Part shown: in pieces, positions 3,701 through 34,554 of the stretch
Layout: every line of letters begins with the position of its first letter
How positions within the stretch are numbered: position 1 is the stretch's first letter
Assembly: GCA_021286645.1 (NCBI GenBank)
Contig: JAJTBZ010000055.1
Coordinates: 1 to 57,309, forward strand
DNA from: Ignavibacteria bacterium
Lineage (GTDB): Bacteria > Bacteroidota > Ignavibacteria > Ignavibacteriales > Ignavibacteriaceae
DNA length: 57,309 bases
Reading direction: 5' to 3'
Translations under genes and position numbers: made by a program
Notes under the pieces: model-generated
What the model saw: the letters and a program-made list of their open reading frames with translations, nothing else
Databases searched by the model: none
What the model was told of the DNA's origin: nothing

Positions 3701-4156
3701 TTATTGAGCTTGAGCTGCTTCAGCTTCTTTAGCTGCTTTTTCGCTTTTAGCTGCTTCTTTTTCATCTTTGCGTGCAGCTGCTCTATCATTAACAAGCGTA
3801 TTGAAATCAACTAATTCGATGAATGCCATTTCAGCACCATCACCAAGTCTTCTGCCGATACGGGTTATACGGGTATAACCACCTGCGCGTTCGCCAATAT
3901 GGCTAACGATATCGGTGAATAATTCTTTAACGACAGCTTTGTCTTTTAAAGAATCCATAACTAAACGCATGTTATGCAAATCGCCTTTACGAGCTTTAGT
4001 AATAATAGGTTCAATAAAGCCGCGTAATTCTTTAGCTTTTTCGGCTGTTGTTTTAATTCTTTTATGTTTCAATAAAGACACCGAAAGATTGCGTAATAAC
4101 GCATTGCGGTGGCTTGCGGTTCTTTTTAATTTTCTACCTTGAACACGATGTCTCAT
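3701..4156 (-). CDS. rplQ: 50S ribosomal protein L17
   Basis: Large-subunit protein at the exit-tunnel side. It begins MRHRVQGRKLKRTASHRNALLRNL, the L17 signature over its first 24 residues, and contains IEPIITKARKGD and GRRLGDGAEMAFIELV. At 151 residues it exceeds the common 115-130 because of an Ala/Lys/Glu-rich C-terminal tail (about residues 125-151) that is probably disordered. SD AGGTAA precedes the ATG. It is the last gene of the alpha operon, 20 bases after rpoA. Confidence 0.97.
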   Translation of the reverse strand: MRHRVQGRKLKRTASHRNALLRNLSVSLLKHKRIKTTAEKAKELRGFIEPIITKARKGDLHNMRLVMDSLKDKAVVKELFTDIVSHIGERAGGYTRITRIGRRLGDGAEMAFIELVDFNTLVNDRAAARKDEKEAAKSEKAAKEAEAAQAQ

Positions 4157-4176
4157 TTCTTTACCTGTTTCTCAAA

Positions 4177-5172
4177 TTAATTAGAATCGTTCTCTTCTTT
4201 AAGATATTTATCTATGTCCATACCGAATTCTAAGCCAAGACTTTCAACGATTTCGGTCAATTCAGCCAATGATTTACGGCCGAAGTTTCTGAATTTAAGC
4301 ATTTCTGCTTCATCTCTACGAACCAGTTCTGCAATAGATTTAATATTAGCAGCTTTCAGGCAGTTATGAGCGCGAACGCTTAATTCAAGATCGTCAACAC
4401 TGGTAAGTAAAATCTTGCGGATTTTTTCTTTTTCAGTATCCTTTTTCTGCTCAACCTGATTTTCTTCGGGTTCCAGATCGAGATTAATGAACAACTGCAA
4501 ATGATCGCGCAGAATTTTTGCTGCCTGAGTAAGGGCGTCATCCGGCGATATAGAGCCATCAGTAAAGATTTCCAATGTCAGTTTTTCATAATCATTATTA
4601 TCACCAATACGAACGTTTTCGATATCATAGCGAACGTTCTTAATCGGTGTAAAAACAGAATCAATCGCAATCATCCCGATAGGGAAATCGGACGATTTAT
4701 TTTCGTACGAAGGAACATATCCACGTCCCCTGCCGATGCGTAATTCCACATCAAATTTAGCACCTTTATTCAGAGTAGCAATATGCAATTCCGGATTAAG
4801 GATTTCAATATCGGTACTGTGTTTCTGAATATCAGCAGCAGTAAATTCCATATCGCCAGTTAACGAAAATTCTATTTTCGTCGGCTTTTTCGTAATGGAT
4901 TTTAAACGTACTTGTTTCAGGTTCAGAATGAGCTCTGTAACATCTTCAACAACACCGGGGATGGAGGTAAATTCATGTAAAACATCGCTGAATTTAACCG
5001 CAACAATAGCAGAACCCGGCAAGGAAGATAAAAGAACCCTGCGTAAAGAATTACCTATTGTAACGCCATAGCCTCTTTCCAAAGGCTGTAGGATAAATTT
5101 ACCATAAGTATTCGTAAAACTTGTTTCATCTAATACAACGCCTTCCGGCATTCTAAGATTTGAGACACTCAT
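4177..5172 (-). CDS. rpoA: DNA-directed RNA polymerase subunit alpha
   Basis: 331 residues. The N-terminal assembly domain shows FILQPLERGYGVTIGNSLRRVLLSSLPGS (in two overlapping motifs) and the VEDVTELILNLK region. The C-terminal DNA/activator-binding domain shows DDLELSVRAHNCLKAANI and FRNFGRKSLAELTE. An acidic linker (about 233-250) joins them. It dimerises and nucleates the polymerase core with beta and beta', both encoded upstream in this window. The position between rpsD and rplQ is the normal alpha operon order. Confidence 0.98.
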   Translation of the reverse strand: MSVSNLRMPEGVVLDETSFTNTYGKFILQPLERGYGVTIGNSLRRVLLSSLPGSAIVAVKFSDVLHEFTSIPGVVEDVTELILNLKQVRLKSITKKPTKIEFSLTGDMEFTAADIQKHSTDIEILNPELHIATLNKGAKFDVELRIGRGRGYVPSYENKSSDFPIGMIAIDSVFTPIKNVRYDIENVRIGDNNDYEKLTLEIFTDGSISPDDALTQAAKILRDHLQLFINLDLEPEENQVEQKKDTEKEKIRKILLTSVDDLELSVRAHNCLKAANIKSIAELVRRDEAEMLKFRNFGRKSLAELTEIVESLGLEFGMDIDKYLKEENDSN

Positions 5173-5198
5173 TTATTCACACCTCAAATTACTTGAAA

Positions 5199-5828
5199 TT
5201 ATTTGGAGTACAACTCGACCACTAACTGCTCATTAGCATTTAGCGGAATCTCTGCTCTTTCGGGAACCTGTAAAAATGTTCCGGTAAGCTGCGCTTTATC
5301 GACAGACAACCATGAGAACATGTTGGTATCTTTCATGCGCTTCAGAGAATTATGAATCATATCTAATTTTTTGCTCTTATCAGCAACTTTAATAACGTCA
5401 CCAGGTGAAACCATAAATGACGGTATATCAACTAAAATATCGTTCACTAAAATGTGACGATGACGAACGATCTGGCGAGCCGATTTTCTGGACGGGGCAA
5501 AACCTAACCGATAAACTACGTTATCTAATCTGCGTTCGAGAAGCTTAATAAGGTTCTCACCAGTTCTACCCTTCTGACGGCTGGCTTTTTCAAAACTGTT
5601 ATGGAACTGTGTTTCAAGTAAGCCATAAATTCTTTTGATTTTCTGTTTTTCACGTAACTGTACGCCATATTCAGAAATCTTTGCTCTGCGATTAACGCCG
5701 TGCTGTCCCGGAGGATAATTCCTACGTTCCAAAGGGCATTTTTCAGTAAGGCACTTCTGACCTTTTAAATATAATTTTTGCTTTTCTCTTCTGCACAGTT
5801 TACAAACTGATCCGGTATATCTTGCCAT
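5199..5828 (-). CDS. rpsD: 30S ribosomal protein S4
   Basis: 209 residues. Primary 16S rRNA binder on the body of the small subunit. The N-terminus carries four cysteines, C-x2-C and C-x5-C ([15 protein letters not shown]), typical of zinc-binding S4 paralogues. The S4 RNA-binding domain is seen at [25 protein letters not shown] and [20 protein letters not shown] stands before the ATG. In other bacteria S4 represses the alpha operon by binding its leader; that has not been shown here. Confidence 0.97.
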
Positions 5829-5847
5829 TTAAAAATAACTCCGTTAA

Positions 5848-6234
5848 TTAAACTCTACGTTTCTTAGGTGGTCTGCATCCGTTATGCGGAATTGGGGTTA
5901 CATCTTTAATAGATGATATTTCTAACCCTGCAGTTGATAGAGCGCGAATAGCAGACTCGCGTCCGGACCCTGGTCCTTTAATTTTAACTTCAACTTTGCG
6001 TAAACCCATTGCATAAGCTTCTTTTGCAGCTGCTTCGCAGGTTACCTGTGAGGCATAGGGTGTATTTTTGCGGGAACCTTTGAAATTGTTCCTTCCAGCT
6101 GAAGACCAAGAAATCGTATTTCCATAAATATCTGTTAATACAACAAGCACATTATTAAAAGTAGCTTTAATATGAGCTACGCCCATTGCATCAACTACTG
6201 CTTTTTTCTTCGTTTTTTTGGTTGTCTTAGCCAA
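5848..6234 (-). CDS. rpsK: 30S ribosomal protein S11
   Basis: 128 residues; platform protein contacting mRNA at the E site. Signatures are [55 protein letters not shown]-like and [13 protein letters not shown] at the end. The start is TTG (6232-6234), preceded by SD GGAGG about nine bases upstream; no ATG suits. Between rpsM and rpsD as usual. Confidence 0.97.
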
Positions 6235-6256
6235 ATGAAAAATCCTCCTTTAATTC

Positions 6257-6640
6257 TTATTTCTTGGCAATGGCTTTCTTCTTGCCAGCTACTGTTTTTC
6301 TCTTACCTTTTCTGGTACGAGAATTTGTTCGTGTTCTTTGCCCACGAGCAGGTAAACTTCTTCTATGACGGAGGCCGCGGTAACAACCGATATCCATCAA
6401 ACGTTTAATATTCATTTGTACTTCAGAACGCAACGCGCCTTCGACTTTATAGTCTGCCTGAATCACCGAACGGATTGCGGCTACTTCGTCTTCAGTTAGC
6501 GTGTTAACCCGTCTATTCGGGTCAATATTTGCTTTCTCTAAAATCTCTCCGGCAGTAAAAGTACCTATGCCGAAAATATACTGTAAGCCGTAAAAAATCT
6601 TTTTACTCTTTGGAAGATCAACGCCAGCTATACGTGCCAA
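6257..6640 (-). CDS. rpsM: 30S ribosomal protein S13
   Basis: 127 residues; head of the small subunit, contacting P-site tRNA. Shows [10 protein letters not shown], the helix-two-turn-helix region [35 protein letters not shown] over its core, and a Lys-rich tail. The start codon is TTG (6638-6640) behind SD GGAG. It follows rpmJ by 20 bases. Confidence 0.97.
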
Positions 6641-6660
6641 GAAATCACTCCTTTATTTTA

Positions 6661-6777
6661 TTAACCTTGACGCTGTTTATGTTTAGGATTTTTACTGCAA
6701 ATGACACGGACAACGCCTTTCCGTTTAATTATTTTGCAGTGTTCACAAATTTTACGTACCGATGAACGGACTTTCAT
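6661..6777 (-). CDS. rpmJ: 50S ribosomal protein L36
   Basis: 38 residues, too short for many gene callers. Translation begins [16 protein letters not shown] and ends NPKHKQRQG. Three cysteines and a histidine (CEHC, C, H) give the zinc-binding form of L36. SD GGAG lies five bases before the ATG. It sits between infA and rpsM, its usual place. Confidence 0.95.
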
Positions 6778-6787
6778 ATCGTCTCCA

Positions 6788-7006
6788 TTATTTATAACGG
6801 TATGTTATTCTACCTTTTGTTAAATCGTATGGCGATAGTTCAACTGATACTTTATCGCCTACGAGTATCTTTATAAAATGCATTCTCATTTTACCGGATA
6901 TATGTGCCAATATCTCATGCCCGTTATCCAAACGAATCTTAAAATGAGCATTCGGTAAAGTATCTTGCACAATGCCGTCTACTTTTATGGGTCCTTGTTT
7001 TGGCAT
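6788..7006 (-). CDS. infA: translation initiation factor IF-1
   Basis: 72 residues, a single S1/OB-fold that blocks the ribosomal A site during initiation. Clear signatures: [33 protein letters not shown] (split over strands 1-4), [24 protein letters not shown]-type ending. ATG start, one base after map. Gene order map-infA-rpmJ-rpsM is standard for the spc-alpha junction. Confidence 0.97.
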
Positions 7007-7007
7007 A

Positions 7008-7769
7008 TTATATTACTGTCAATATTTCCGGTTGTTTACCATTTACTAAAATTGTATGCTCGTAATGTGCCGATGCTAATCCATCCTGCGTAATCACCGT
7101 CCATTGGTCCTTTCCGGTGTACACTTTATACGAGCCGATATTTATCATTGGTTCAATTGCTAAAGTCATTCCCGTTTTTAATTTCGGGCCTATTCCTTTT
7201 CTTCCAAAGTTAGGAATTGAAGGATCTTCGTGGAGTTTCTTACCTACCCCGTGACCACACAGATCACGAACTACTGAAAAACCGTGGCTTTCTACATATT
7301 CCTGAACTGCCGCAGAGATATCCTGAACCCTGTTATCTTCTTTTGCTTGTTCAATCCCCAAATATAAGGACTTTTCAGTAACTTCCATTAACTTTTTCTT
7401 CTCTTCGGTAATATTACCTACTGCTACAGTAATGGCGGCATCGCCGAAAAACCCATTTTTTACTACCCCTATGTCTAAAGAAACTATATCACCATCATTT
7501 ATTACCCGTTCACCAGGTATTCCGTGTACCACTTCTTCATTAACCGATACACATAAAGCTGCGGGATAAGGTTTCCCATACGCGGCTCCGTAGCCCTTAA
7601 AGGCCGGCAGCCCGTCTTTACTCCGAATATAATCTTCGGCTATTCTATCCAACTCCAGCGTTTTCATTCCAGGTTGAATACTTCTTTTCAATAAATTTAA
7701 AGTTTCAGCTACTATTCGGGAGCTTTCTCTAATATAATCGATTGCTTTCCCGGTTTTAATATAAATCAC
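7008..7769 (-). CDS. map: methionine aminopeptidase, type I
   Basis: 253 residues. Removes the initiator methionine from nascent proteins. The two-metal site is visible: SLDIGV (Asp), FFGDAA (Asp), [10 protein letters not shown] (His), LAIEPM (Glu) and HYEHT (Glu). The HGIPG motif is also present. The start is GTG (7767-7769); no strong SD is seen. It is downstream of secY, as in many bacteria. The C-terminal stop is one base from the infA start, suggesting translational coupling. Confidence 0.96.
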
Positions 7770-7785
7770 GTTTCTATCGCTGAAA

Positions 7786-9120
7786 TTATTTTCTACCTTT
7801 AATCTTGCCAGATTTCATAAAGCCATCATAATGTCTCATTAATAAGTGGCTTTCGATCTGCTGCAAAGTATCTAATGCTACACCGACTGCAATCAAAAGA
7901 CTGGTACCTCCAAAGAACTGCGAGAAACGACCCGAAACTCCTAGCTTGACAGCTAATGAAGGAAGTACTGCAATTATTGCTAAGAATATAGATCCTGGCA
8001 ATGTTATCTTTGTTAAGATTGTATCGATAAAATCTGAGGTCTGTTTACCAGGACGAATTCCCGGTATAAAACCACCCTGCTTTTGCATGTTTTCACTAAC
8101 CTCTTTCGGGTTAAGAGCAATTGCAGTATAAAAGAATGTAAAGAGCACGATTATGATACCGTAGATAACCATATACACATACGATGTGTATGAAAGATAT
8201 TGAGCAATTCCCTGTAAAAAGCCGTTATTAGGGAAGAACGATAATATCGTGTTAGGGATAAACATAATCGACTGAGCGAAAATTATAGGCATTACACCTG
8301 CAGTATTAACTCTTAAAGGTATATACTGAGTTACTCCGCCATATACCTTGCGTCCAACAACTCTTTTAGCGTACTGTACCGGAATTCTTCTTGTGCCCTG
8401 AGTGATATAAACAACTCCGGCAATAATAAGAACCATTAAAAGTACAATTACGATTTCAACGATAAATTGTCTTTGACCAGAATTTACTAACTGATATTCA
8501 TCGAGTATCGCGTAGGGGAACCTATCGATAATACCAATAAAGATAATTAATGAAATACCATTGCCTAAACCTTTTTCCGTTATCTGCTCACCCATCCACA
8601 TCAAAAAGATAGTGCCGGCGATTAGAATAACAACTGCTGAGAAGATCCAGCCAAGTCCATGAATGCCTGCGGGAATAATTGAATTTCCACCAACTTCAAG
8701 GGAGTTAAGCTTTAAAGTTACACCGTAAGCCTGTAAACCAGCAATTAACACAGTTAAGTAGCGGGTCCACTGAGTAATTTTTTTACGTCCTTCTTCTCCT
8801 TCTTTTTGCATCTTCTGTATAGTAGGTACGAAAGCACCCATTAACTGAAGAATAATTGAAGAAGTAATGTAGGGCATAATACCGAGTGCGAAGATTGCAG
8901 CATTTGCAAAAGCACCACCAACAAACAAATCATACAATCCAAACAAATCGTTTGAATTATTTTTGCTCATTGCTTGTGCTAACAATTTACCATCAACGCC
9001 AGGTAACGTAATATGTGCACCTATACGAACAATAATTAAGAGAACGAGAGTATAAAGAATCCTCTGTCTCAGTTCGTGAATTTTGAATATATTCCGGAAA
9101 GAATCAACAAATCGTGACAT
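7786..9120 (-). CDS. secY: protein translocase subunit SecY
   Basis: 444 residues, about ten membrane helices; the channel for Sec-dependent export and membrane insertion. Signatures: FGLYDLFVGGAF plug region, LGIMPYITSSIILQLM (helix 2b), GEQITEKGLGNGISLIIF, the cytoplasmic loop ARRIPVQYAKRVVG-like, and PEEVSENMQKQGGFIPGIRPG-like. Its partner secE is also in this window; secG is not. It follows rplO by six bases. Confidence 0.98.
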   Translation of the reverse strand: MSRFVDSFRNIFKIHELRQRILYTLVLLIIVRIGAHITLPGVDGKLLAQAMSKNNSNDLFGLYDLFVGGAFANAAIFALGIMPYITSSIILQLMGAFVPTIQKMQKEGEEGRKKITQWTRYLTVLIAGLQAYGVTLKLNSLEVGGNSIIPAGIHGLGWIFSAVVILIAGTIFLMWMGEQITEKGLGNGISLIIFIGIIDRFPYAILDEYQLVNSGQRQFIVEIVIVLLMVLIIAGVVYITQGTRRIPVQYAKRVVGRKVYGGVTQYIPLRVNTAGVMPIIFAQSIMFIPNTILSFFPNNGFLQGIAQYLSYTSYVYMVIYGIIIVLFTFFYTAIALNPKEVSENMQKQGGFIPGIRPGKQTSDFIDTILTKITLPGSIFLAIIAVLPSLAVKLGVSGRFSQFFGGTSLLIAVGVALDTLQQIESHLLMRHYDGFMKSGKIKGRK

Positions 9121-9126
9121 TTAATC

Positions 9127-9588
9127 TTATATTTCTAGTTGAGAAATAGTACCACCAGCTGCTTCAATTTTTTCTTTTGCTGTAGCGCTGAAAGCGAAAG
9201 CTTCAATTTCAATTTTCGCTGTCAGGTTACCATCGCCTAAAATCTTATACGGTTTCAGGTTAGATAATAAACCATGCTTAATTAAATCTACAGCAGTAAT
9301 TTTATTCGATTCAAGTTTACCGCTATCAACTAAGTTTTGTAACTGATAGATGTTAACTGTTTGATGCACAACTTTAAAAGGGCTTTTAAAACCATTTTTA
9401 GGAATCCGGCGCTGTAATGGCATCTGACCGCCTTCAAACCAAGCTCTGTGCTTAGCACCAGAACGTGATAACTGGCCGTTCATACCGCGTGTAGCAGTTC
9501 CACCATGGCCCGAACCCTCACCGCGTCCAATCCTTTTACTCGATTTTACTGCACCTTTTGCATACTTTAAGTTACTGAGACGATCCAT
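9127..9588 (-). CDS. rplO: 50S ribosomal protein L15
   Basis: 153 residues. The glycine/arginine-rich N-terminus is typical (KRIGRGEGSGHGGTATRGMNGQ), followed by FEGGQMPLQRRIPKNGF and a C-terminal alpha/beta domain ending GAGGTISQLE-like. Binds 23S rRNA late in assembly. Normal spc position between rpmD and secY. Confidence 0.97.
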   Translation of the reverse strand: MDRLSNLKYAKGAVKSSKRIGRGEGSGHGGTATRGMNGQLSRSGAKHRAWFEGGQMPLQRRIPKNGFKSPFKVVHQTVNIYQLQNLVDSGKLESNKITAVDLIKHGLLSNLKPYKILGDGNLTAKIEIEAFAFSATAKEKIEAAGGTISQLEI

Positions 9589-9599
9589 CGAAATTCCTT

Positions 9600-9788
9600 T
9601 TACTCTTTAATATCTTCAACAACAACTAAGTGTTTAACTTTGTTTATCATGCCGCGAATCTGCGGATTGTCAACTTTAACTACTGAATAGTTTGGACGAC
9701 CTAATCCTAATGCTTTAATAGTTGCCTTCTGATCCTGTGGTCTGTCAATAATACTGCGTATCTGAGTAATCTTTACTTGCTTTGCCAT
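9600..9788 (-). CDS. rpmD: 50S ribosomal protein L30
   Basis: 62 residues: [30 protein letters not shown] and a C-terminal [11 protein letters not shown] match the single-domain bacterial L30. I start at the ATG before AKQ because it lies six bases from the SD AGG; the ATG immediately upstream (9789-9791) is possible. Its SD lies just downstream of the rpsE stop, so translation is probably coupled. Confidence 0.95.
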
Positions 9789-9799
9789 CATCAACCTCA

Positions 9800-10315
9800 T
9801 TAAGACATAAATAACTGATTGATTGTCATGCCTCGTTTTGTTGCCATAGATTTAGCATCAATAAGGCTTACCAATCCATTTAAGGTAGCTTTAACCTGGT
9901 TGTGAGGATTGCTCGAACCAAGTGATTTGGTTAAGATATCCTGAATACCAGCAGCTTCGAGCACTGCACGGACACCACCACCAGCAATAAGACCTGTACC
10001 AGGAGAAGCTGGTTTCAGTAGTACTCTACCGGCACCATATTTACCAATAATTTCGTGAGGAACTGTACCCTTGAAAACATTTACCTTTACTAAATTCTTT
10101 TTTGCATCATCGATACCCTTAGAAATAGCATCGGTAACTTCGTTAGCTTTACCTAAGCCAACACCAACGATACCTTCCTGATTACCAACAACAACAATTG
10201 CGTTAAAGCTAAAACGTCTACCGCCTTTAACTACTTTTGCGACTCTGTTGATATAAACTACTTTTTCTTTAAGATTTTCTATTTCAGTAGCTTTAATTGT
10301 GCGAACTTTCTTCAC
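9800..10315 (-). CDS. rpsE: 30S ribosomal protein S5
   Basis: 171 residues; decoding-fidelity protein. Signatures: [26 protein letters not shown] (over the double-stranded RNA-binding-like domain), [10 protein letters not shown], and the C-terminal domain [29 protein letters not shown] choose GTG (10313-10315) because SD GGAG stands six bases before it; an upstream TTG at 10327 would include that SD in the coding region. It follows tRNA-Gln rather than rplR directly, which is unusual. Confidence 0.96.
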
Positions 10316-10344
10316 AAGTTTCTCCAATCATCATTATGTTACTG

Positions 10345-10415
10345 CTGCCGGGGGAGGATTCGAACCTCCGCATACGGCTCCAAAGGCCGCTGTCCTACCG
10401 TTAGACGACCCGGCA
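10345..10415 (-). tRNA. tRNA-Gln (anticodon TTG)
   Basis: 71-base cloverleaf on the minus strand. The acceptor stem TGCCGGG/CCCGGCA is perfect, with discriminator G. The anticodon stem GCGGC/GCCGT closes loop CTTTGGA, giving anticodon TTG. The T arm is GGAGG-TTCGAAT-CCTCC. The weak T1-A72 pair and G73 agree with known glutamine identity elements. CCA is not encoded. It begins five bases after the rplR stop and ends 29 bases before the rpsE start, inside the spc operon. Confidence 0.95.
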
Positions 10416-10420
10416 ATAAA

Positions 10421-10786
10421 TTACATTACTATTCCGCCTTCGCGAACGCCTTCAGCAACGGCCTTAATGCGGCCATGATACTGATATCCGTTTCTATCGA
10501 AAACAGCTGTTTTAATATTCTGTTCAATAGCTTTTTTAGCTAATAACATGCCAACGAGTTTACTTTTACCAACTTTACCGGGCGCAGCTTTAAGCTGTTC
10601 AGCAAGTTCAGCCGATTTTGTTGATACTGCAAGCAAGGTCTTCCCTGCTTCATCATCAATCAACTGAGTATAGATATGGCTCAGGCTTCTGTAAACGGTC
10701 AATCTTGGTTTTTCAGCTGTACCGAAGATTTTTTTACGGATTTTCTGCTTTGAACGTTCTCTCGTAACTGATTTTTTCGTTATCAT
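10421..10786 (-). CDS. rplR: 50S ribosomal protein L18
   Basis: 121 residues. Binds 5S rRNA together with L5. Lys/Arg-rich N-terminus, then RLTVYRSLSHIYTQLIDDEAGKTLLAVST and a C-terminal VFDRNGYQYHGRIKAVAEGVREGG, both parts of the L18 family pattern. Between rplF and a tRNA-Gln gene that separates it from rpsE. Confidence 0.97.
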   Translation of the reverse strand: MITKKSVTRERSKQKIRKKIFGTAEKPRLTVYRSLSHIYTQLIDDEAGKTLLAVSTKSAELAEQLKAAPGKVGKSKLVGMLLAKKAIEQNIKTAVFDRNGYQYHGRIKAVAEGVREGGIVM

Positions 10787-10808
10787 ATCTTTTTACCTTA
10801 CTCTAAAA

Positions 10809-11348
10809 TTACTTACCGGCTGTCTTACCCGCTTTTCTACGGATAATTTCAGTGGAATACTTAATACCTTTACCTTTGTATGGTTCAGGTTCTCTGAAAG
10901 AACGAATTTTAGCTGAAATCTGTCCAACTAATTGTTTATCGATACCCGATATTACAATCTGAGTTGGCGTGTTAGTAGCTAATGTAATACCTTCGGGGGG
11001 CATAAAGTAAATAGGATGTGAATAACCAATTGTTAACAACAGGTTTTCACCTTTCATTTCTGCTTTATAACCAACACCAACGATATCAAGAACTTTCTTG
11101 AATCCTTCAGTAACGCCGATTATGTTATTCTGAACGAGCGCTCTGGTTAAACCGTGTAATGAACGGTTTTCCTTTAAATCATTATCACGGGTGAAGGTAA
11201 TTTCGTTATTTTCGATAACTACCTTAATATTGGGATTAACAGGGCTGGTTAATTCTCCTTTAGGCCCTTTAACTTTCAACTGACCTTCTGTTATACTAAC
11301 CGAAACACTGCTCGGAATAACAACGGGTTTTTTACCTATACGAGACAC
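10809..11348 (-). CDS. rplF: 50S ribosomal protein L6
   Basis: 179 residues in two similar domains. MSRIGKKPV start, LKVKGPKGEL, LHGLTRALVQNNIIGV, VGVGYKAEMKG and the C-terminal EPYKGKGIKYSTEIIRRKAGKT are diagnostic. It sits near the GTPase-associated centre of the large subunit. GTG start (11346-11348) with SD GGAG seven bases upstream. Confidence 0.97.
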   Translation of the reverse strand: MSRIGKKPVVIPSSVSVSITEGQLKVKGPKGELTSPVNPNIKVVIENNEITFTRDNDLKENRSLHGLTRALVQNNIIGVTEGFKKVLDIVGVGYKAEMKGENLLLTIGYSHPIYFMPPEGITLATNTPTQIVISGIDKQLVGQISAKIRSFREPEPYKGKGIKYSTEIIRRKAGKTAGK

Positions 11349-11366
11349 TATAAAACTCCTGCTAAA

Positions 11367-11765
11367 TTACCAAATTTCACAAATAACTTCGCCGCCAACA
11401 TTCTCTTTACGAGCTTGCTTGTCACTCATTATACCACGAGATGTGGAAATGATAGACATACCAAAGCCGTTAAATACGCGCGGTAAATTATCTACACCAG
11501 CATAAATTCTTAATCCCGGAGAACTAATTCTCTTAATTCCGGAGATTGCACTAACGCCATTCGAATATTTTAACAAAACTCGCAGAACATTCTGTTTGTT
11601 ATCTTCAATTTCAGTATAGTCTAAAACGAAGTTTTGTTCTTTTAATATTTTAACAATATTCTTTTTCATTTCAGATGACGGGATGTCTACACGGCGTTTG
11701 TTCGCCTTAATAGCATTCCGCACCCTGGTTAATAAATCTGCAATAGGATCTGTAATAGCTGACAT
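11367..11765 (-). CDS. rpsH: 30S ribosomal protein S8
   Basis: 132 residues from MSAITDPIADLLTRVRNA, the family N-terminus; it ends in the typical GVMSDKQARKENVGGEVICEIW-like stretch. An in-frame ATG 21 bases upstream exists, but SD GAGGAG stands properly before the ATG chosen here. A central 16S rRNA binder; in Escherichia coli it represses the spc operon, which is possible but untested here. Confidence 0.96.
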   Translation of the reverse strand: MSAITDPIADLLTRVRNAIKANKRRVDIPSSEMKKNIVKILKEQNFVLDYTEIEDNKQNVLRVLLKYSNGVSAISGIKRISSPGLRIYAGVDNLPRVFNGFGMSIISTSRGIMSDKQARKENVGGEVICEIW

Positions 11766-11779
11766 TCTAAATTTCTCCT

Positions 11780-12049
11780 CTACCAACTAGCTTTCTTAAC
11801 ACCAGGTAATTCGCCTCTAAGGGCTTTTTCACGGAAAACGAGACGCGAGATACCGAATTTACGGAAATAAGCGCGTGAACGTCCGGTATCAATGCAACGA
11901 TTCCTTTGGCGAATTGGTGCAGAATTCCTTGGCAACAACTGTAATTCGTCCCACTTGCCTTCTTTTTTTAATTGCTCGCGTTGTTCTTTATACTTTTCGC
12001 TTAAACGTTTTCTTTTCTCTTCACGGGCAAATAAACTTTTTCTAGCCAT
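11780..12049 (-). CDS. rpsN: 30S ribosomal protein S14, zinc-free form
   Basis: 89 residues. [27 protein letters not shown] is the S14 core, with the usual LPGVKKASW end. The CxxC pairs of the zinc-binding form are absent, so this is the longer C-minus type. Located between rplE and rpsH, the standard spc place. Confidence 0.97.
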
Positions 12050-12064
12050 TATTCAACCTTTATT

Positions 12065-12727
12065 TTATCTCATTTCTTTTTTTCTAAATGGTAAGCCGAA
12101 CGAAGCTAAAAGTTCATAGGCTTCAGCGTCTGTAGGTGCAGTAGTTACAAAAGTAATATCCATACCTACAATTTTATTTACCTTATCAACGTTAATTTCA
12201 GGGAAAATAATCTGTTCCTTGATACCGATAGTATAATTACCACGCCCGTCAAACGATTTGTCTGAAAGACCACGGAAGTCACGTACGCGAGGTAAGGCAA
12301 TATTAATTAATCTATCTAAGAACTCATACATTTTATCATTACGCAATGTAACTTTGGCACCAATGTTCATACCCTGGCGTAATTTAAAGTTCGAGATAGC
12401 TTTCTTAGCTTTTCTGATAGTCGCTTTCTGACCGGTGACAGCTTCAAGATCTTTCACTGCTTCTTCAAGCACTTTCTGATCACTCACAGCTTCGCCGACA
12501 CCCATGTTTACGACGATCTTTTCAATTTTGGGTACCTGCATAACACTCTTATACGCAAACTTCGTATTGAGTGCAGGAACGATTTCCTTCTTATATATAT
12601 TTAATAAACGTGAAGGAATCTTAACTTCTTTTTCATTAACAGCGGACTGCTTAATCTCTTCAGCAGCTTTATCCTGTTTTTCTTTTTTCCCTTTTGGGGC
12701 GGCTTTTACGCTTTTTTTATCTGCCAT
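12065..12727 (-). CDS. rplE: 50S ribosomal protein L5 with Lys-rich N-terminal extension
   Basis: Binds 5S rRNA and contacts P-site tRNA. Core signatures are [47 protein letters not shown] and [19 protein letters not shown]-like. The protein is 220 residues, against roughly 180 normally. The excess is an N-terminal tail of about 40 residues rich in Lys, Ala and Glu ([17 protein letters not shown]) and probably disordered. Next to rplX (19-base gap). Confidence 0.96.
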
Positions 12728-12746
12728 TTCGTGTCAATCCTGTTAA

Positions 12747-13070
12747 TTATAACATTTCACCGGTTTTTTTACTTACCCGTGCAATTTTTTTCTTGCCGGT
12801 TTTCTCATCCATAATAATTTTCGATCCGATCCGGGTTGCTTTACCGTCTTTATCGATAATCATCACATTAGAAACATGGATAGGCATTTCACGTTCGATA
12901 ATACCACCCTGGGGGTTAGCCTGCGAACGTTTGGTATGACGTTTCCGAATGTTTACACCTTCAACGATGACGCGCATCTTTTTCGGGAAAACTTTCAGAA
13001 CTTTGCCTTCCTTCTTATCATTACCGGATATAACTACTACTTTATCGTCTTTTTTAATTTTCATTTTCAT
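12747..13070 (-). CDS. rplX: 50S ribosomal protein L24
   Basis: 107 residues; assembly initiator near the exit tunnel. The KOW motif is [22 protein letters not shown] (split), followed by [12 protein letters not shown] and [15 protein letters not shown]. Start at the ATG seven bases after GAG; a second ATG two codons in is possible. Confidence 0.96.
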
Positions 13071-13083
13071 GAATAAACTCTGC

Positions 13084-13452
13084 CTATAATACTTCTGGAG
13101 CTAAAGAGACTATTTTCATAAATTGTTTCTCGCGCAATTCGCGAGCAACGGGGCCGAAAATACGGGTACCTTTAGGTTCATTCTGAGCATTGATCAGAAC
13201 AGCCGCATTTTCATCAAAACGAATATACGAACCATCTTTACGGCGTACTTCTTTCTTGGTACGAACGATAACAGCTTTTGATACATCGCCTTTCTTTACA
13301 GCACCATTCGGTATAGCTGATTTAACAGAAACAACGATCGTATCGCCAACAGTGGCATATTGTCTGCCGCTGCCGCCAAGGACACGGATACAGCGAACTC
13401 TTTTAGCGCCGGAGTTATCAGCAACGACTAAATTGGTTTCTTCTTGAATCAT
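13084..13452 (-). CDS. rplN: 50S ribosomal protein L14
   Basis: 122 residues, one of the most conserved large-subunit proteins. [22 protein letters not shown] start, [24 protein letters not shown] and [15 protein letters not shown] follow the family throughout. It lies at the subunit interface. Between rpsQ and rplX. Confidence 0.98.
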
Positions 13453-13469
13453 GAGTACTTTCTCCTATC

Positions 13470-13733
13470 CTATTTCGCCTTTTCAATAATCTCAACCAGA
13501 CGCCAGCATTTATTTTTGCTGAGCGGACGAGTTTCCATAATTTTTACAACGTCACCAATACTGCACTGGTTTTCAGAATCATGAGCCATAAGTTTGGTGG
13601 TTTTCTTAAAGTATTTCTTATAAATTGGGTGCGGAACCCTTCTTTCTATAGCAACAGTAATGGTTTTATCCATCTTATTGCTCACCACGGTACCAATACG
13701 AGTTTTACGTAATGCTCTGGTTTCTGACATCAT
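13470..13733 (-). CDS. rpsQ: 30S ribosomal protein S17
   Basis: 87 residues with the OB-fold signatures [33 protein letters not shown] and a [14 protein letters not shown]-containing end. Two adjacent ATGs serve as possible starts; the first overlaps the rpmC stop (ATGA) and is seven bases from SD GGAG. Translation is probably coupled to rpmC. Confidence 0.96.
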
Positions 13734-13957
13734 TTCTTATCTCCTTCAGCAGCTGTTTCCTGCTTGTTTTGCATTGACCGCTCATTCAATACCGTTTTCA
13801 AACGTGCGATAGTCTTTTTCGACTGACGCAGTTTAGCAGTGTTGGTCAAATTCTTTAAGGCGTGAGTAAACCGAAGATCAACTAACCCGGCTTCTTCTTC
13901 TTCTATACGCTTAATAATTTCGCTATCTTTTAACTGTTTTACTTCGTAAATTTTCAT
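13730..13957 (-). CDS. rpmC: 50S ribosomal protein L29
   Basis: 75 residues, two helices. [10 protein letters not shown]-like start, [15 protein letters not shown] and a TVLNER end place it as L29. It lies beside the peptide exit and trigger factor site. A charged C-terminal tail of about 12 residues extends it slightly past the common 65. Overlaps rpsQ by four bases. Confidence 0.95.
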
Positions 13958-13974
13958 TTCAATAACCTTCTGAA

Positions 13975-14394
13975 TTAACCTTCGTAATCAGGTCTTTTAC
14001 AAACCTTGGTCTTAATGGGTAATTTATGACCGCACATACTTAAAGCTTCAGCAGCTAATTCTGCAGAAACACCTGAAACTTCAAACATAACACGCCCAGG
14101 TTTTACGACTGCGACCCAAAATTCCGGGGCACCTTTACCTTTACCCATACGGGTTTCGAGAGGTTTTTTGGAAACCGGCTTATCCGGGAAAATACGAATC
14201 CAAATCTTACCATCTCTTTTCATTTTTCTTGAAAGAGCAACACGGCAAGCTTCTATCTGGCGGCTGGTAATCCAGGCTGGTTCAAGAGCTTTTAAGCCAA
14301 AATCACCAAATGCAATTGTGCTTCCGCGTTTTGCATTGCCTTTCATTCTACCACGTTGTGCTTTTCTAAACTTAACTCTTTTTGGCATTAACAT
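13975..14394 (-). CDS. rplP: 50S ribosomal protein L16
   Basis: 139 residues. [19 protein letters not shown] start is the family pattern, followed by [29 protein letters not shown]-like, [28 protein letters not shown] lies nine bases before the first ATG. Contacts the A site and 5S rRNA region. Normal S10 position. Confidence 0.97.
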
Positions 14395-14414
14395 AACAAG
14401 TCACTCCGGAACAA

Positions 14415-15056
14415 TTATTCTGAAACACGTTTACCTAAAATTTCCCCACGACAGATCCATACTTTAATTCCGATGGATCCGTATACTGTCTCGGCACGAC
14501 CGTTAGCAAAGTCGATATCAGCACGTAATGTATGCAATGGAACGCGCCCCTCTTTGTACTGTTCAGTTCTTGCCATTTCAGCTCCCCCTAAACGGCCTGA
14601 ACACATAATTTTTATACCTTCGGCACCCATTCTCATAGCAGAAGTAATTGCAGATTTCATCGCGCGTCTGAACGATACGCGTCCCTGCAGCTGAGTTGCA
14701 ACATTCTCAGCAACTAAATTAGCATCTAATTCCGGACGTTTAATTTCATTAATTTGAATTTTAACATCTTTACCGCTAACCTGCTTTAATTCCTGTTCCA
14801 GCGAGGTAATTTCTTTACCGCTTCTACCGATAACAACACCTGGTCTGGAGGTATGGATTGTCAGTTGTACGTTCTTTGAAGTCCGGTCTATTACAATACG
14901 AGAAATACCGGCTTTTTTCAAACGCTGTTTAACATAGGTACGAATTTTCTCGTCTTCTTTTAATTTCACTGAGTAAGAGCGTTTTTCGAACCAGTTAGAT
15001 TCCCATCCGCGATTAATTCCTACTCTAAAACCGATTGGATTAGTTTTTTGTCCCAA
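14415..15056 (-). CDS. rpsC: 30S ribosomal protein S3
   Basis: 213 residues. [13 protein letters not shown] start, the KH domain [14 protein letters not shown], and the C-terminal [23 protein letters not shown] are diagnostic; mRNA entry and helicase function. The start codon is TTG (15054-15056), right after SD GGAGG. Between rplV and rplP. Confidence 0.97.
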
Positions 15057-15065
15057 AATACCTCC

Positions 15066-15407
15066 TTAGTTTTTCGTTGCTACGATAATGGTGAGATGAC
15101 ATGAACGTTTCCGTATCCGATAAGCACGACCCATCGGAGCCGGTGAGATGCGTTTCATGGTTGGGCCCTGATCTACAAATGCTTCTTTCACATATAAATC
15201 AGATTCTTCCAAGCGATTCTCATTATTGTTTATCAAATTAGCTGCAGCCGAACGAAGAGTCTTTACAGCATCTCGTGCAGCATGCTTACTCTGGAAACTG
15301 AGAATATTGGTCGCGTTATCTACAGACAGACCGCGAATTAAATCGACAACTAATCTCATCTTTCGAGGCGATGAAGGTATATATCTATTTACTGCTTTTG
15401 CTTCCAT
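15066..15407 (-). CDS. rplV: 50S ribosomal protein L22
   Basis: 113 residues. [18 protein letters not shown] start and the long beta hairpin [24 protein letters not shown] that lines the peptide tunnel; HLTIIV near the end. No insertion or deletion is evident in the hairpin. Between rpsS and rpsC. Confidence 0.97.
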
Positions 15408-15430
15408 ACAACTTAATTACATTCTTTCAA

Positions 15431-15718
15431 TTACTTTGCTTTTGATGCTTTTTCAGCTTTTGTTCCCGGGTGCCCACGGAATATACGGGTCGGAGCAAAT
15501 TCACCTAATTTATGACCAACCATATTTTCTGTTACATAAACAGGAATCATTTTCTGGCCATTGTGAACACCAATTGTATGGCCAACAAACTCTGGAATGA
15601 TCATTGATGAACGAGACCAGGTTTTGATGATTTTCTTTTCGTTTTTCTTGTTTAATTCCTGAACTTTATCCAGAAGTTTGAACTCGATAAATGGACCTTT
15701 TTTAATTGACCTTGGCAT
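15431..15718 (-). CDS. rpsS: 30S ribosomal protein S19
   Basis: 95 residues. [40 protein letters not shown] and the [18 protein letters not shown] end are the family pattern. Head of the small subunit. ATG start, 11 bases after rplB. Confidence 0.98.
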
Positions 15719-15729
15719 AATTCACTCTG

Positions 15730-16560
15730 TTACTTATTAGTACGACGTTTAACGATATATTTGGTAGATTCTTTTTTGGGCTTACGAGTCTTAAGGCCTT
15801 TGGCTTTCTGACCCCATGGTGATACAGGATGTCCACCACCTGAAGTTTTACCTTCACCGCCGCCCATTGGGTGATCTACAGGGTTCATCGCAACGCCTCG
15901 GCTATGCGAACGCTTTCCTAACCAACGGTTTCTACCGGCTTTACCAATGCTAATGTTTTCGTGATCTGAGTTACCAATAACTCCATACGTTGCATAGCAT
16001 TCAACTCTGATCATACGAACTTCACCCGAAGGCATACGACACTGAGCAAATTTACCATCGCGAGCTACAATCTGTAACGAGCATCCGGCACTACGACCTA
16101 ACTGGCCGCCTTTACCAGGTTTCAATTCTACGTTATGAATGAAGCTACCGAGAGGTATTTCGCTTAACGGCAGTGAGTTACCTACGCGGATATCTGACCC
16201 AGGGCCGGAGACAACAGTTGCTCCAACTTTTAAACCATCCGGAGCCAAAATATAACGTTTTTCGCCGTCTTTATAAAATAATAATGCAATTCTTGCTGTT
16301 CTATTTGGATCATATTCAATCGATTGAACAACCGCAGGAACGCCTAATTTATTTCTCTTGAAATCAATAACTCTGTATTGTCTCTTGTGTCCACCACCAC
16401 GATGACGAGAAGTAACTCTTCCTAAGTTATTTCTACCACCGCTCTTGGTAATTTTCTTTACGAGAGATTTCTCCGGTGTAGATTTTGTGATTTCCTCAAA
16501 AGCAGGAAGTGTCATGTATCTTCTGCCCGGGGTAGTTGGTTTTAATGTTTTAATTGCCAT
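15730..16560 (-). CDS. rplB: 50S ribosomal protein L2
   Basis: 276 residues; needed for subunit joining and peptidyl transfer. [32 protein letters not shown], and the [17 protein letters not shown] loop with the conserved histidine are intact. Standard S10 place between rplW and rpsS. Confidence 0.98.
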
Positions 16561-16583
16561 GTATCAAACTCCGGATCCGCTTA

Positions 16584-16877
16584 CTATACAGTTTCAAATA
16601 AATCTATCTTATCGCCCTTTTTCAGAACGACGTACGCTTTTTTATAATCTGGGCGCTTTCCTTCAAATCTGCCGGATTTTCTGAAGATCATTTTCTTCTT
16701 GCCCATATAATTTGCTGTGGTAACGTGAACTACGGTCACATTAAATTTCTTTTCCACGGCACGTTTAATATCGATTTTATTAGCTGCTTTATCAACTATA
16801 AAACCGTACTTATTTTGCTCCTCGGTAAGGTGCAAAACTCTTTCGGTAATAACAGGTTTTACTAAAATGTTATGCAT
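16584..16877 (-). CDS. rplW: 50S ribosomal protein L23
   Basis: 97 residues. VKPVITERVLHLTEEQNKYGFIVDKAANK (over the N-terminal half) and RAVEKKFNVTVVHV match L23, the docking site for trigger factor and signal recognition particle at the tunnel exit. Overlaps the end of rplD by eight bases. Confidence 0.96.
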   Translation of the reverse strand: MHNILVKPVITERVLHLTEEQNKYGFIVDKAANKIDIKRAVEKKFNVTVVHVTTANYMGKKKMIFRKSGRFEGKRPDYKKAYVVLKKGDKIDLFETV

Positions 16878-17523
16878 TAGCTACCTCTTTAACTTTGTCG
16901 CCGTACGCGGAATTTAAGTATTCAACTGCGCTTTTTTGAACTACCAGGATCTGGTTATTTAACAGATCGTAGGTAGAAGCAGTTTTAACTTCCTGTACAA
17001 AACAACGGTCTATATTTCTACCGGATTTATAAACAATTTCATCGTGTTTACCGGTTAATAATAAAACTTTTTTACCGGTAAGTTTCAGTGCATCTAATAA
17101 TGCAGCAAACTTCTTTGTTTCCGGTTTGTCGAAAGAAAAGTCTTCAACAACAACAAACTGCTGATCAGCAACTTTATATGATAAAGCTGAGACTTTAGCA
17201 AGGAAACCAACCTTTTTCGGTAATTTCTGACGGTGATCGCGTGGTTTTGGGCCAAAAATTGTACCGCCACCAACCCATACGGGTGATCTGGATGTACCAG
17301 CTCGTGCGCCGCCTCTGCCTTTTTGTTTCCAGGGCTTTTTACCGCCGCCGTTTACTTCAGCGCGTTCTTTAGCTTTGCTAGTACCCTGTCTCTGGTTGGC
17401 TAAATACCTTTTAACTGCTAAATAAATAGCATGGTCATTAGGATCAGCGTTAAAAACATTTTCTAATAGTTGTACTTTTTCAGTAGAAACAGTACCATCA
17501 ATTTTATAAACATTAAATTCCAT
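16870..17523 (-). CDS. rplD: 50S ribosomal protein L4
   Basis: 217 residues. The extended loop is conserved: GGGKKPWKQKGRGGARAG, followed by SPVWVGGGTIFGPKPRD. C-terminal Rossmann-like domain with KVLLLTGKHDE. In Escherichia coli L4 also represses the S10 operon through its leader; that leader type is not recognised here. Confidence 0.97.
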   Translation of the reverse strand: MEFNVYKIDGTVSTEKVQLLENVFNADPNDHAIYLAVKRYLANQRQGTSKAKERAEVNGGGKKPWKQKGRGGARAGTSRSPVWVGGGTIFGPKPRDHRQKLPKKVGFLAKVSALSYKVADQQFVVVEDFSFDKPETKKFAALLDALKLTGKKVLLLTGKHDEIVYKSGRNIDRCFVQEVKTASTYDLLNNQILVVQKSAVEYLNSAYGDKVKEVANA

Positions 17524-17535
17524 AGTCGTAGAGAA

Positions 17536-18156
17536 TTACTTCTTAATCAATTCAACATATGAGTTAACTGCGCCTGGTATTGCTCCCTTAACAAGCACAA
17601 CATTTTTATCGAGGATAACTTTCATAACTTTTAAATTAGCTATGGTTACCTTATCGTTTCCTGTGCGTCCCGCCATGCGCTGGCCACGAAATACGCGGGA
17701 TGGATATGAAGAAGCACCGATTGAACCGGGAGCGCGAAGACGGTCACTTTGACCGTGGGTAGTTCCACCAACACCACCGAAACCGTGGCGGCGCATAACG
17801 CCTTGGAATCCTTTACCCTTGCTCATACCGCGAACTTTAATCTTTTCTCCTTCAGTAAAGAAATCTGCTTTTAATTCATCACCAGATTTCAGTTCACCTA
17901 CTTCATCTAAACGAAACTCTCTTACTACCACTGCAGGTTCGAGATTTAATTTCTTATAAAGACCTGCATCGGGTTTTCTTACTCTTTTAGCTTTTACACC
18001 AAACCCTAATTGAACAGCATTATACCCATGCTTTTCAATAGTACGGACCTGTAAAACTTTGCATGGTCCAACTTCGATAACGGTAACGGGAACGATATTT
18101 CCATCTTCTGTATAAATTCTCGACATTCCCAATTTTTTTCCTATCAGTCCGGGCAT
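17536..18156 (-). CDS. rplC: 50S ribosomal protein L3
   Basis: 206 residues from MPGLIGKKLGMSRIY. Other signatures: GPCKVLQVRT, VRGMSKGKGFQGVMRRHGF, and SIGASSYPSRVFRGQRMAGRTG near the peptidyl transferase centre. An in-frame ATG 15 bases upstream is ignored because SD GGAG fits the ATG used here. Confidence 0.97.
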   Translation of the reverse strand: MPGLIGKKLGMSRIYTEDGNIVPVTVIEVGPCKVLQVRTIEKHGYNAVQLGFGVKAKRVRKPDAGLYKKLNLEPAVVVREFRLDEVGELKSGDELKADFFTEGEKIKVRGMSKGKGFQGVMRRHGFGGVGGTTHGQSDRLRAPGSIGASSYPSRVFRGQRMAGRTGNDKVTIANLKVMKVILDKNVVLVKGAIPGAVNSYVELIKK

Positions 18157-18172
18157 TTTATCTCCATTCAAC

Positions 18173-18481
18173 TTATAGCTTTATCTCAATGTCTACACCC
18201 GCAGGTATATCTAATTTACTTAAGGAATCAATTGTCTTTGAATTTGAATTATGAATATCAATGATCCTCTTATGAGACGACAACTGAAATTGTTCGCGAG
18301 ATTTTTTATCAACGTGCGGGGACCGTAATACAGTGAAAATAGTTCTCTTTGTTGGCAATGGTATAGGACCCGAAACTACTGCTCCGGTACTTCTTACAGT
18401 CTTGATAATTTTCTCGGTAGATTTATCAATAAGAATATGATCATAAGACTTTAACTTTATTCTTATTTTTTGTCCTGGCAC
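18173..18481 (-). CDS. rpsJ: 30S ribosomal protein S10
   Basis: 102 residues; also the NusE transcription antitermination factor, which binds NusG (encoded upstream at 33241). [46 protein letters not shown] (two motifs) and [12 protein letters not shown]-like end are diagnostic. GTG start (18479-18481) behind SD GGAG. First gene of the S10 cluster, following tuf with a hairpin in the gap. Confidence 0.97.
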
Positions 18482-33783: not shown

Positions 33784-33966
33784 TTAAAATATCATTTTAA
33801 ATATATAAGAAATACCCATGTCTATGACATAGGTGAAGCAAGCGAGAATAATACACATGACTACAACAACCATGGTAGATTCCTTCAGCTCTTCTTTCGA
33901 AGGCCAGGTAACTTTTTTGAGCTCTTTTGTAAAGTCGTTAACAAAAGCTACAATTTTCTCTTTCAT
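33784..33966 (-). CDS. secE: preprotein translocase subunit SecE
   Basis: 60 residues with one membrane helix (about 31-55). The amphipathic segment FTKELKKVTWPSKEELKEST is the SecE signature. I start at ATG 33964-33966; a GTG 21 bases upstream lies at the tRNA-Trp 3' end and is improbable. Partner of SecY (7786). Immediately before nusG. Confidence 0.93.
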   Translation of the reverse strand: MKEKIVAFVNDFTKELKKVTWPSKEELKESTMVVVVMCIILACFTYVIDMGISYIFKMIF

Positions 33967-33984
33967 ATCAGTTTCTTTCAGTTG

Positions 33985-34057
<73 letters not shown>

Positions 34058-34067
34058 ATAAACAACT

Positions 34068-34217
34068 CTATTTTGTTTCTTTATGAATGATATGTTTTTT
34101 ACACCAAGGGCAATATTTTTTATATTCTACGCGCGACGGATGTGTCCGTTTATTTTTCGTCGTAGTATAATTGCGCCTCTTGCATTCTGTACATTCTAAA
34201 GTAATAATTTCTCGCAT
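34068..34217 (-). CDS. rpmG: 50S ribosomal protein L33, zinc-binding form
   Basis: 49 residues: [21 protein letters not shown], then [21 protein letters not shown] (positions about 29-49). Two CxxC pairs give the zinc form. The longer reading frame upstream runs through tRNA-Thr, so the ATG at 34215-34217 is chosen. It sits between tRNA-Thr and tRNA-Trp, the usual rpmG-(tRNA-Trp)-secE-nusG order. Confidence 0.95.
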
Positions 34218-34241
34218 TATGGTCTCTATACTTTTTAGTTG

Positions 34242-34314
34242 AGCTGATGACCGGGATTGAACCGGTGACCTCATCCTTACCAAGGATGTGCTCTACCAAC
34301 TGAGCTACATCAGC
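34242..34314 (-). tRNA. tRNA-Thr (anticodon GGT)
   Basis: 73-base cloverleaf: acceptor GCTGATG/CATCAGC, anticodon stem CATCC/GGATG with loop TTGGTAA, T arm ACCGG-TTCAATC-CCGGT, discriminator T. No encoded CCA. Between tRNA-Gly and rpmG. Confidence 0.95.
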
Positions 34315-34331
34315 ATGAAGAAAACTCTCTG

Positions 34332-34404
34332 AGCGGGAGACGGGACTCGAACCCGCGACCAACAGCTTGGAAGGCTGTGACTCTACCAACTGAGTTACTC
34401 CCGC
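34332..34404 (-). tRNA. tRNA-Gly (anticodon TCC)
   Basis: 73-base cloverleaf: acceptor GCGGGAG/CTCCCGC, anticodon stem ACAGC/GCTGT with loop CTTCCAA, T arm GCGGG-TTCGAGT-CCCGT, discriminator T. No encoded CCA. Confidence 0.95.
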
Positions 34405-34422
34405 GTGCGGTTCTTACAATAC

Positions 34423-34465
34423 TTAAAACCTGGCAATTCCTTATAGCGGTATTGCCAGGTTTTAA
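34423..34465 (-). other. 15-bp hairpin between tRNA-Tyr and tRNA-Gly
   Basis: Perfect inverted repeat TTAAAACCTGGCAAT / ATTGCCAGGTTTTAA (34423-34437 and 34451-34465) with a 13-base loop, filling most of the spacer between the two tRNAs. No long T tract follows on the minus strand. Candidate processing or partial termination element. Confidence 0.65.
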
Positions 34466-34470
34466 TGGTG

Positions 34471-34554
34471 TGGGCGGCGAGGGATTCGAACCCCCAAAGG
34501 CGTTTGCCAACGGATTTACAGTCCGCCCCGGCTCTCCAACTCCGGCGTCCGCCC
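34471..34554 (-). tRNA. tRNA-Tyr (anticodon GTA)
   Basis: 84-base tRNA with a long variable arm (class II). Acceptor GGGCGGA/GCCGCCC has one mismatch at the inner pair (A7-G66). Anticodon loop CTGTAAA gives GTA; T arm GGGGG-TTCGAAT-CCCTC; discriminator A. First gene of the tRNA-secE-nusG unit. Confidence 0.93.

Follow-up and report, generated by a model that had tools for sequence, protein, structure and literature searches.

A gene for tRNA-Gln(UUG) lies between rplR and rpsE, which encode ribosomal proteins L18 and S5, in the spc operon of an Ignavibacteria bacterium. Across all sets of genomes that we analyzed, tRNA-Gln(UUG) occupies this gap in 161 genomes with ten family codes, and one further genome (G052) has a gap tRNA with another anticodon. 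Few gene strings of bacteria are as conserved as the spc operon, whose order is taken to reflect tight co-regulation and translational coupling. The stretch of DNA analyzed here, referred to as “the window,” comprises positions 1 to 57,309 of contig JAJTBZ010000055.1 (assembly GCA_021286645.1); other genomes, contigs, loci, and families carry our own codes (G, C, L, and f). From gene order, spacing, and comparison with relatives, we infer with a probability of about three in four that the tRNA is a co-transcribed cistron that is excised from the operon message, that it was gained once and early, and that it has been kept as the sole UUG glutamine tRNA.

The tRNA gene and its place in the operon

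ARAGORN placed a tRNA-Gln(TTG) at 10344-10415 on the minus strand, and the Rfam tRNA model matched 10345-10415 on the same strand with a score of 64.7 bits (cut-off, 29; E value, 7.9e-12). The gene is taken here as the 71 nt from 10345 to 10415, with the anticodon UUG at 10383-10381. Upstream, rplR (10421..10786, minus strand; an open reading frame that served as the tblastn query) ends 5 nt before the tRNA (spacer at 10416..10420), which is too short a distance to leave room for a promoter outside rplR. Downstream, rpsE (9800..10315, minus strand; an open reading frame matched by the S5 query) is separated from the tRNA by 29 nt (10316..10344) that are predicted to become the 3′ trailer and rpsE leader when the tRNA is released. 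Two programs and the sequence itself thus agree with the original prediction of a well-formed tRNA-Gln(TTG) 5 nt after the rplR stop, 28 to 29 nt before rpsE, and in the same direction; the span first given for it, 10316-10423, takes in the entire gap and also the stop codon of rplR. The gap would measure ∼33 nt if the tRNA were taken out.

The spacing of 28 to 29 nt counts the GTG at 10315-10313 as the rpsE start. This codon is most likely the start, given the Shine-Dalgarno (SD)-like GGAG (10322..10325, minus strand) 6 nt upstream, a motif that would also allow rpsE to be initiated separately; the mechanically called open reading frame begins at TTG 10327. The tRNA has the discriminator G73 and the pair U1-A72, and CCA is absent from the gene, whose 3′ end is GGCAG followed by CAG. 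A chance match to the tRNA model is ruled out by the Rfam score and by covariation in relatives. Folding the window gap with its flanks gave a stability not above that of shuffles (z of −0.50), so stability alone is uninformative.

The gene shares its strand with a closely spaced run of genes, as a cistron of a protein operon would. This S10-spc-alpha run extends from rpsJ to rplQ (3701..18481, minus strand), with all open reading frames on one strand and with other junctions of −8 to 26 nt, infA-rpsM (147 nt) being the exception. Terminator-like sites on both strands between 3500 and 19000 were at chance level (13 found versus 12.1 expected), and the strongest (3676-3651) follows rplQ.

The host genome (3.72 Mb in 108 contigs, 99.0% complete) yielded 43 tRNA matches, all of which were typed. 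The window copy is the single tRNA-Gln(UUG) among them, and one tRNA-Gln(CUG) is located on another contig. A search of the genome with the gap-tRNA model recovered no further Gln(UUG), the next match being a tRNA-Glu at 59.4 bits. The tRNA list is incomplete: Ile(GAU), Ala(UGC), and Ser(UGA) are missing, and scores were obtained for 150 of the 204 candidates. A second UUG copy could therefore lie in a missing piece. Regarding another tRNA-Gln, for which the original prediction had proposed to look, no other UUG gene occurs among the 43 tRNAs, but a tRNA-Gln with the anticodon CUG does exist. The lone UUG copy, together with conservation in relatives, rules out a recent duplicate limited to this strain, and an intact structure with no second functional UUG copy found rules out a pseudogene. 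The genome has a GlnRS gene (C94, 768 bits), and the gap tRNA, with its G73 and U1-A72, may be charged with glutamine.

Conservation in the order, the class, and the phylum

The S5 query matched in all 41 genomes searched (the host and 40 relatives), from which 30 rpsE loci were obtained. In 29 of these the gap holds tRNA-Gln(UUG), and in the remaining one the contig ends short of the gap. R1, a covariance model built on the gap tRNA, matched 122 of 136 genomes of the order at an E value of ≤1e-16, and at a relaxed threshold 4 of the 14 left over (G229, G243, G256, and G299) also proved to have tRNA-Gln(UUG) in the gap. Nine of the 136 gave no UUG match at the relaxed threshold; five of the nine are <90% complete, and G275, G281, G285, and G286 gave none although they are 94 to 98% complete. 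The place of the tRNA was read for 114 of the 122 matched genomes and is the rplR-rpsE gap in every case, and three further genomes agree by coordinates, the tRNA lying between rplR and rpsE in G031 and G135 and just before rpsE in G034. All 119 stretches tested, hand-picked for a tRNA of the gap type or for a UUG tRNA previously located in the gap (L338 of G238 was left out), have the tRNA between rplR and rpsE, 118 with UUG and one, from G052, with GUG. The gap tRNA, sought in the rplR-rpsE gaps of relatives as had been suggested, is conserved across the order and beyond.

G238, judged from the 3.1 kb around its tRNA, is a member of the order with the UUG gene elsewhere: in this 100% complete genome, tRNA-Gln(UUG) (L338, C48:24210-24280) has neither rplR nor rpsE in the 3.1 kb read. 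The gap tRNA of G052 (L185/L261, C46:24847-24917) has a GUG (His) anticodon on a Gln body, one base change away; two congeners (L286 and L287) keep UUG, and none of the R1 matches typed in G052 is another UUG Gln. The GUG is probably a sequence error; if it is real, CAA may have no tRNA in that genome.

For the class, 60 stretches were chosen from 119 searched genomes to span genera, and 59 hold both genes. Of these loci, 26 have a gap tRNA (25 UUG and one GUG; families f8, f11, f13, f14, f15, f19, and f20) and 33 have none (f4, f5, f6, f7, f9, f10, f12, f16, f17, f18, f21, f22, and f23), and no family is split between carriers and non-carriers. ARAGORN found no tRNA beyond the gap tRNA in 37 longer class stretches, mostly of 9 to 13.5 kb. 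The four f6 gaps (L160-L163) are 120 to 132 nt long and contain no tRNA by ARAGORN or Rfam; three of the four have the motif TAnnTTTG.

Among 80 named loci, the 24 with a gap tRNA are 24 of the top 25 by rank, 55 are without it, and one is cut. The titles of the carriers name Ignavibacteria and relatives, Melioribacteraceae, or simply Bacteroidetes/Bacteroidota; within the top 25, only L093 (titled Cytophagales) is not a carrier. The 55 non-carriers are mostly Bacteroidia, plus one KSB1 locus (L104), which constitutes the coverage of KSB1 and other phyla. Outside the class, 54 of 56 genomes of the phylum have gaps that, by match coordinates, are smaller than the smallest carrier gap (90 nt), and two gave no match; the largest of these gaps, ∼70 to 80 nt by the same coordinates, are in family f26. 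ARAGORN found no tRNA in the gaps of G148, G149, and G195, and RNA in the long gaps of Hymenobacter was rejected on reading, as these reflect an N-terminal extension of rpsE. The statement that the rplR-rpsE junction is normally free of RNA genes therefore describes Bacteroidia and the other outgroups read, but not the Ignavibacteria-type clade.

A comparison with Chlorobi, also proposed originally, did not reveal a common slot. In all 16 genomes of f29, a Chlorobiaceae-type family, the rplR-rpsE gap is short (by match coordinates, with one read), so a tRNA-Gln slot shared with Chlorobi was rejected. These genomes have their own tRNA elsewhere in the operon: tRNA-Gly(UCC) is located between rplN and rplX in 16 of 16 read (for example, L250 at 5702-5775; also L357-L371), beginning 12 to 16 nt past the end of the rplN match. 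This tRNA-Gly was not found in the rplN-rplX stretch of five other non-class genomes and G148. The FMO protein, which we take to link f29 to green sulfur bacteria, was detected in all six f29 genomes tested (of 16); an earlier FMO search scored 0 of 40 class genomes, and that same search was silent in the controls too. The f29 arrangement is a second, separate instance of a tRNA inside the spc operon.

Bodies of the gap tRNA and history of the slot

In 16 gap tRNAs, hand-picked as diverse from 50 distinct ones, 99.1% of pair cells are standard. Changes on both sides occur at 11 of 21 pairs, six of them in the acceptor stem, and neither 500 shuffles (0/500) nor any slid register approached the observed covariation, which argues that the gap tRNA is under selection. 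In all 13 class non-carriers checked, the tRNA-Gln(UUG) is built differently and lies outside the gap. In the labels coined for this analysis, the non-carrier form, which has a CCAAGYGGTAAGG D-arm and reaches the discriminator after 72 nt, is type A, and the gap tRNA is type B. Type A scores 63 to 70 bits with the gap-tRNA model; in 11 carriers, the only other matches of at least 60 bits were to tRNA-Glu (G002 and G142) or tRNA-Gln(CUG) (G052 and G061). The body of the gap tRNA is 62 to 70% identical to tRNA-Glu and 65 to 79% identical to the older tRNA-Gln, and at these values it may derive from either. G73, an identity element for GlnRS, occurs in all 8 carriers that have GlnRS, and all 3 carriers that lack the enzyme have A73. 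This split is expected if G73 is kept for GlnRS, but it amounts to about two independent events because two of the three A73 carriers belong to sister families. Loss or gain of GlnRS as the explanation of carriage was rejected, since the enzyme scores above its threshold in 8 of the 11 carriers and also in 7 of the 13 non-carriers.

Genus g142 has type B in the gap of two species (L432 and L433) and a third tRNA body, also with the anticodon UUG, in the same gap of three others (L337, L349, and L350). The D-arm of the third body resembles that of the CUG isoacceptor, and the change is either an in-place replacement or a conversion from another Gln tRNA; the rplR-rpsE slot outlived a change of its occupant. 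The tRNA-Gln(UUG) that G238 has outside the operon stretch is of this third-body kind.

A tree of 16 proteins (15 ribosomal proteins and SecY) from 41 genomes, built by a quick method without a mixture model, requires at least three state changes of the gap tRNA. The AU test rejects a clade of all carriers (p of 5.9e-6), of carriers with f5 (3.2e-5), and of carriers with f5 and f7 (0.0115), while a branch with weak support (60) separates carriers with f5, f7, f10, and f18 from the remaining genomes. Our reading of this tree is one old gain followed by about three losses, with types A and B possibly coexisting for a while; this makes four events against the tree minimum of three, and several gains or transfers are possible. 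The arrangement is old and clade-wide. We propose that a single early event in a large Ignavibacteria-type clade brought the gene into the gap, that it displaced the older tRNA-Gln(UUG) of the other body type located elsewhere, and that it would then have been hard to lose as the sole UUG glutamine tRNA. The rejected carrier clade, the nine genomes without a UUG match, and G238 with its gene elsewhere would count against this proposal. Repeated insertion into a hot spot, or transfer of a tRNA-bearing rplR-rpsE segment between lineages, gains some weight from the carriers' failure to form one clade and from the presence in G302 of two gap copies of different types, one of which is probably foreign contamination (the listed contamination is 4%). 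We regard such traffic as distinctly improbable, because in the 59 class loci presence follows the family codes and no code is split, and a single old gain with losses needs few events.

Predicted maturation of the tRNA and possible meaning of its place

In bacteria, tRNAs mature when RNase P and a 3′ endonuclease cut them from the transcript. If the tRNA-Gln(UUG) is transcribed together with the S10-spc-alpha ribosomal-protein genes on one transcript, these cuts would split the message between rplR and rpsE. RNase P would cut the 5′ end and a 3′ endonuclease the 3′ end, with CCA added afterwards; RNase Z is expected to be that endonuclease because CCA is not encoded. The upstream piece of mRNA would end 5 nt after rplR and the downstream piece would start ∼28 nt before rpsE, which would be translated from its own ribosome-binding site and not by coupling from rplR. 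Consistent with lost coupling, an SD-like motif precedes rpsE in 53 of 74 distinct carrier loci versus 14 of 33 class non-carriers (Fisher p of 0.005, a value that ignores shared ancestry and uncertain start codons) and in 18 of 86 of all non-carriers, although this enrichment may reflect ancestry. The spacing on the two sides of the tRNA ranges from 4 to 54 nt and from 11 to 111 nt in carrier loci, and in 30 of the 74 it lies only 4 to 9 nt beyond rplR, which leaves no room for a promoter outside that gene. With such spacers, a ribosome terminating on rplR would sit over the beginning of the tRNA, and translation and folding may compete. The chance-level terminators, the 4- to 9-nt spacers, the SD excess, the covariation, and the number of carriers would all count for a co-transcribed cistron. 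Short copies of the acceptor 5′ strand occur just after the tRNA in about six loci of the f1 and f2 gaps (L045, L049, L067, L072, L084, and L088) and could pair with the tRNA 3′ strand in an alternative hairpin replacing the acceptor stem; the L084 copy resembles the altered stem of that tRNA.

A promoter inside rplR is possible, and the tRNA might be autonomous, with such a promoter of its own or with a separate rpsE promoter after it, so that co-transcription would be minor. TAnnTTTG, which resembles the −7 promoter element of Bacteroidota, is present in 13 of 74 carrier gaps, including all five f15 loci (L187-L191), where it lies in an AT-rich stretch between the tRNA and rpsE and might serve as a promoter from which operon transcription resumes past the tRNA. 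The motif also occurs in 5 of 86 non-carrier gaps, the f6 cases among them, and is absent from the rplR-rpsE gap of the window; promoter-like sites in the region are at chance level (41 found versus 40.0 expected). With these counts and the short rplR-tRNA spacers, we think autonomy quite unlikely. The place might instead be an adaptive device, in which excision creates a processing and insulation point that separates L18 from S5 and makes tRNA-Gln output depend on transcription of the ribosomal-protein genes, and in which the folded tRNA after the rplR stop further blocks re-initiating ribosomes. The slot has been kept across the ten family codes and its place is unchanged between g142 species with different bodies, tRNA-Gly(UCC) in rplN-rplX of the Chlorobiaceae-type genomes is a parallel, and stable structures after a stop are proposed to insulate against re-initiation (PMC7518266), as the tRNA might by analogy. 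On the other hand, f5, f7, f10, and f18 lie inside the same tree clade without a gap tRNA, G238 has its UUG gene elsewhere, and the spacing is highly variable. Moreover, CAG (119) exceeds CAA (53) over the 31 genes that run from fusA to rplQ, which indicates no high demand for CAA in these genes. The tRNA-less families, G238, and the wide range of spacing would speak against a finely tuned device, while the g142 body change and the Chlorobiaceae-type case argue mildly for some value of the place, and we consider an adaptive device unlikely overall. Regulation is possible, but the data do not demonstrate it and need not invoke it, since the only UUG tRNA of a genome is not easily lost from an essential operon. 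It is improbable, in addition, that two lineages independently put a tRNA in the middle of the spc operon and that the slot itself is selected, with RNase P maturation metering and splitting the message. If that were true, tRNA processing capacity would feed back on ribosome building, and the body swap within a fixed slot in g142 would be a mark of selection. When RNase P or Z is depleted in Bacillus subtilis, mRNAs for ribosome assembly factors change (PMC10100781); this source and PMC7518266 relate to the gap tRNA by analogy only.

Several known systems resemble parts of this arrangement. In the thrU-tyrU-glyT-thrT-tufB operon of Escherichia coli, tRNAs are excised from the tufB message; as we infer for the gap tRNA, they are co-transcribed with mRNA for the translation machinery (in that operon, a translation factor), but they precede the protein gene, whereas here one tRNA stands between two ribosomal-protein cistrons far inside the spc operon. 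The arrangement rpmG-tRNA-Trp-secE, widespread in bacteria and found in the window at 33784-34283, likewise has a single same-strand tRNA beside a ribosomal-protein gene, but in a different operon and with a different tRNA, and in our data only one group has a tRNA in the rplR-rpsE slot. It belongs to a series on the minus strand (33784-34554) of tRNA-Tyr, tRNA-Gly(UCC), tRNA-Thr, rpmG, tRNA-Trp, and secE, then nusG and rplK, which is the second tRNA-bearing ribosomal gene run within the window; runs of the rpmG-secE type that bear tRNAs are common in bacteria. In the tRNA punctuation of mitochondrial transcripts, excision of tRNAs separates the flanking messages, whereas here there is one tRNA in one bacterial operon, and the cutting is predicted. 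As with the ribosome termination structure (PMC7518266), a stable fold soon after a stop could limit re-initiation, but the fold here is a tRNA gene recognized from sequence. Within open PMC text, the scope of our search (subscription papers and annotation tables fall outside it), we found no report that places a tRNA between rplR and rpsE or between rplN and rplX, although such tRNAs may well be annotated in genome records.

A clade-wide tRNA in the spc operon would mean that cutting of the message in each round of expression is tolerated, or used, and the Chlorobiaceae-type case suggests that such tolerance or use is not a one-off. Cultured members of the group could show whether tRNA maturation limits the supply of ribosomal proteins.
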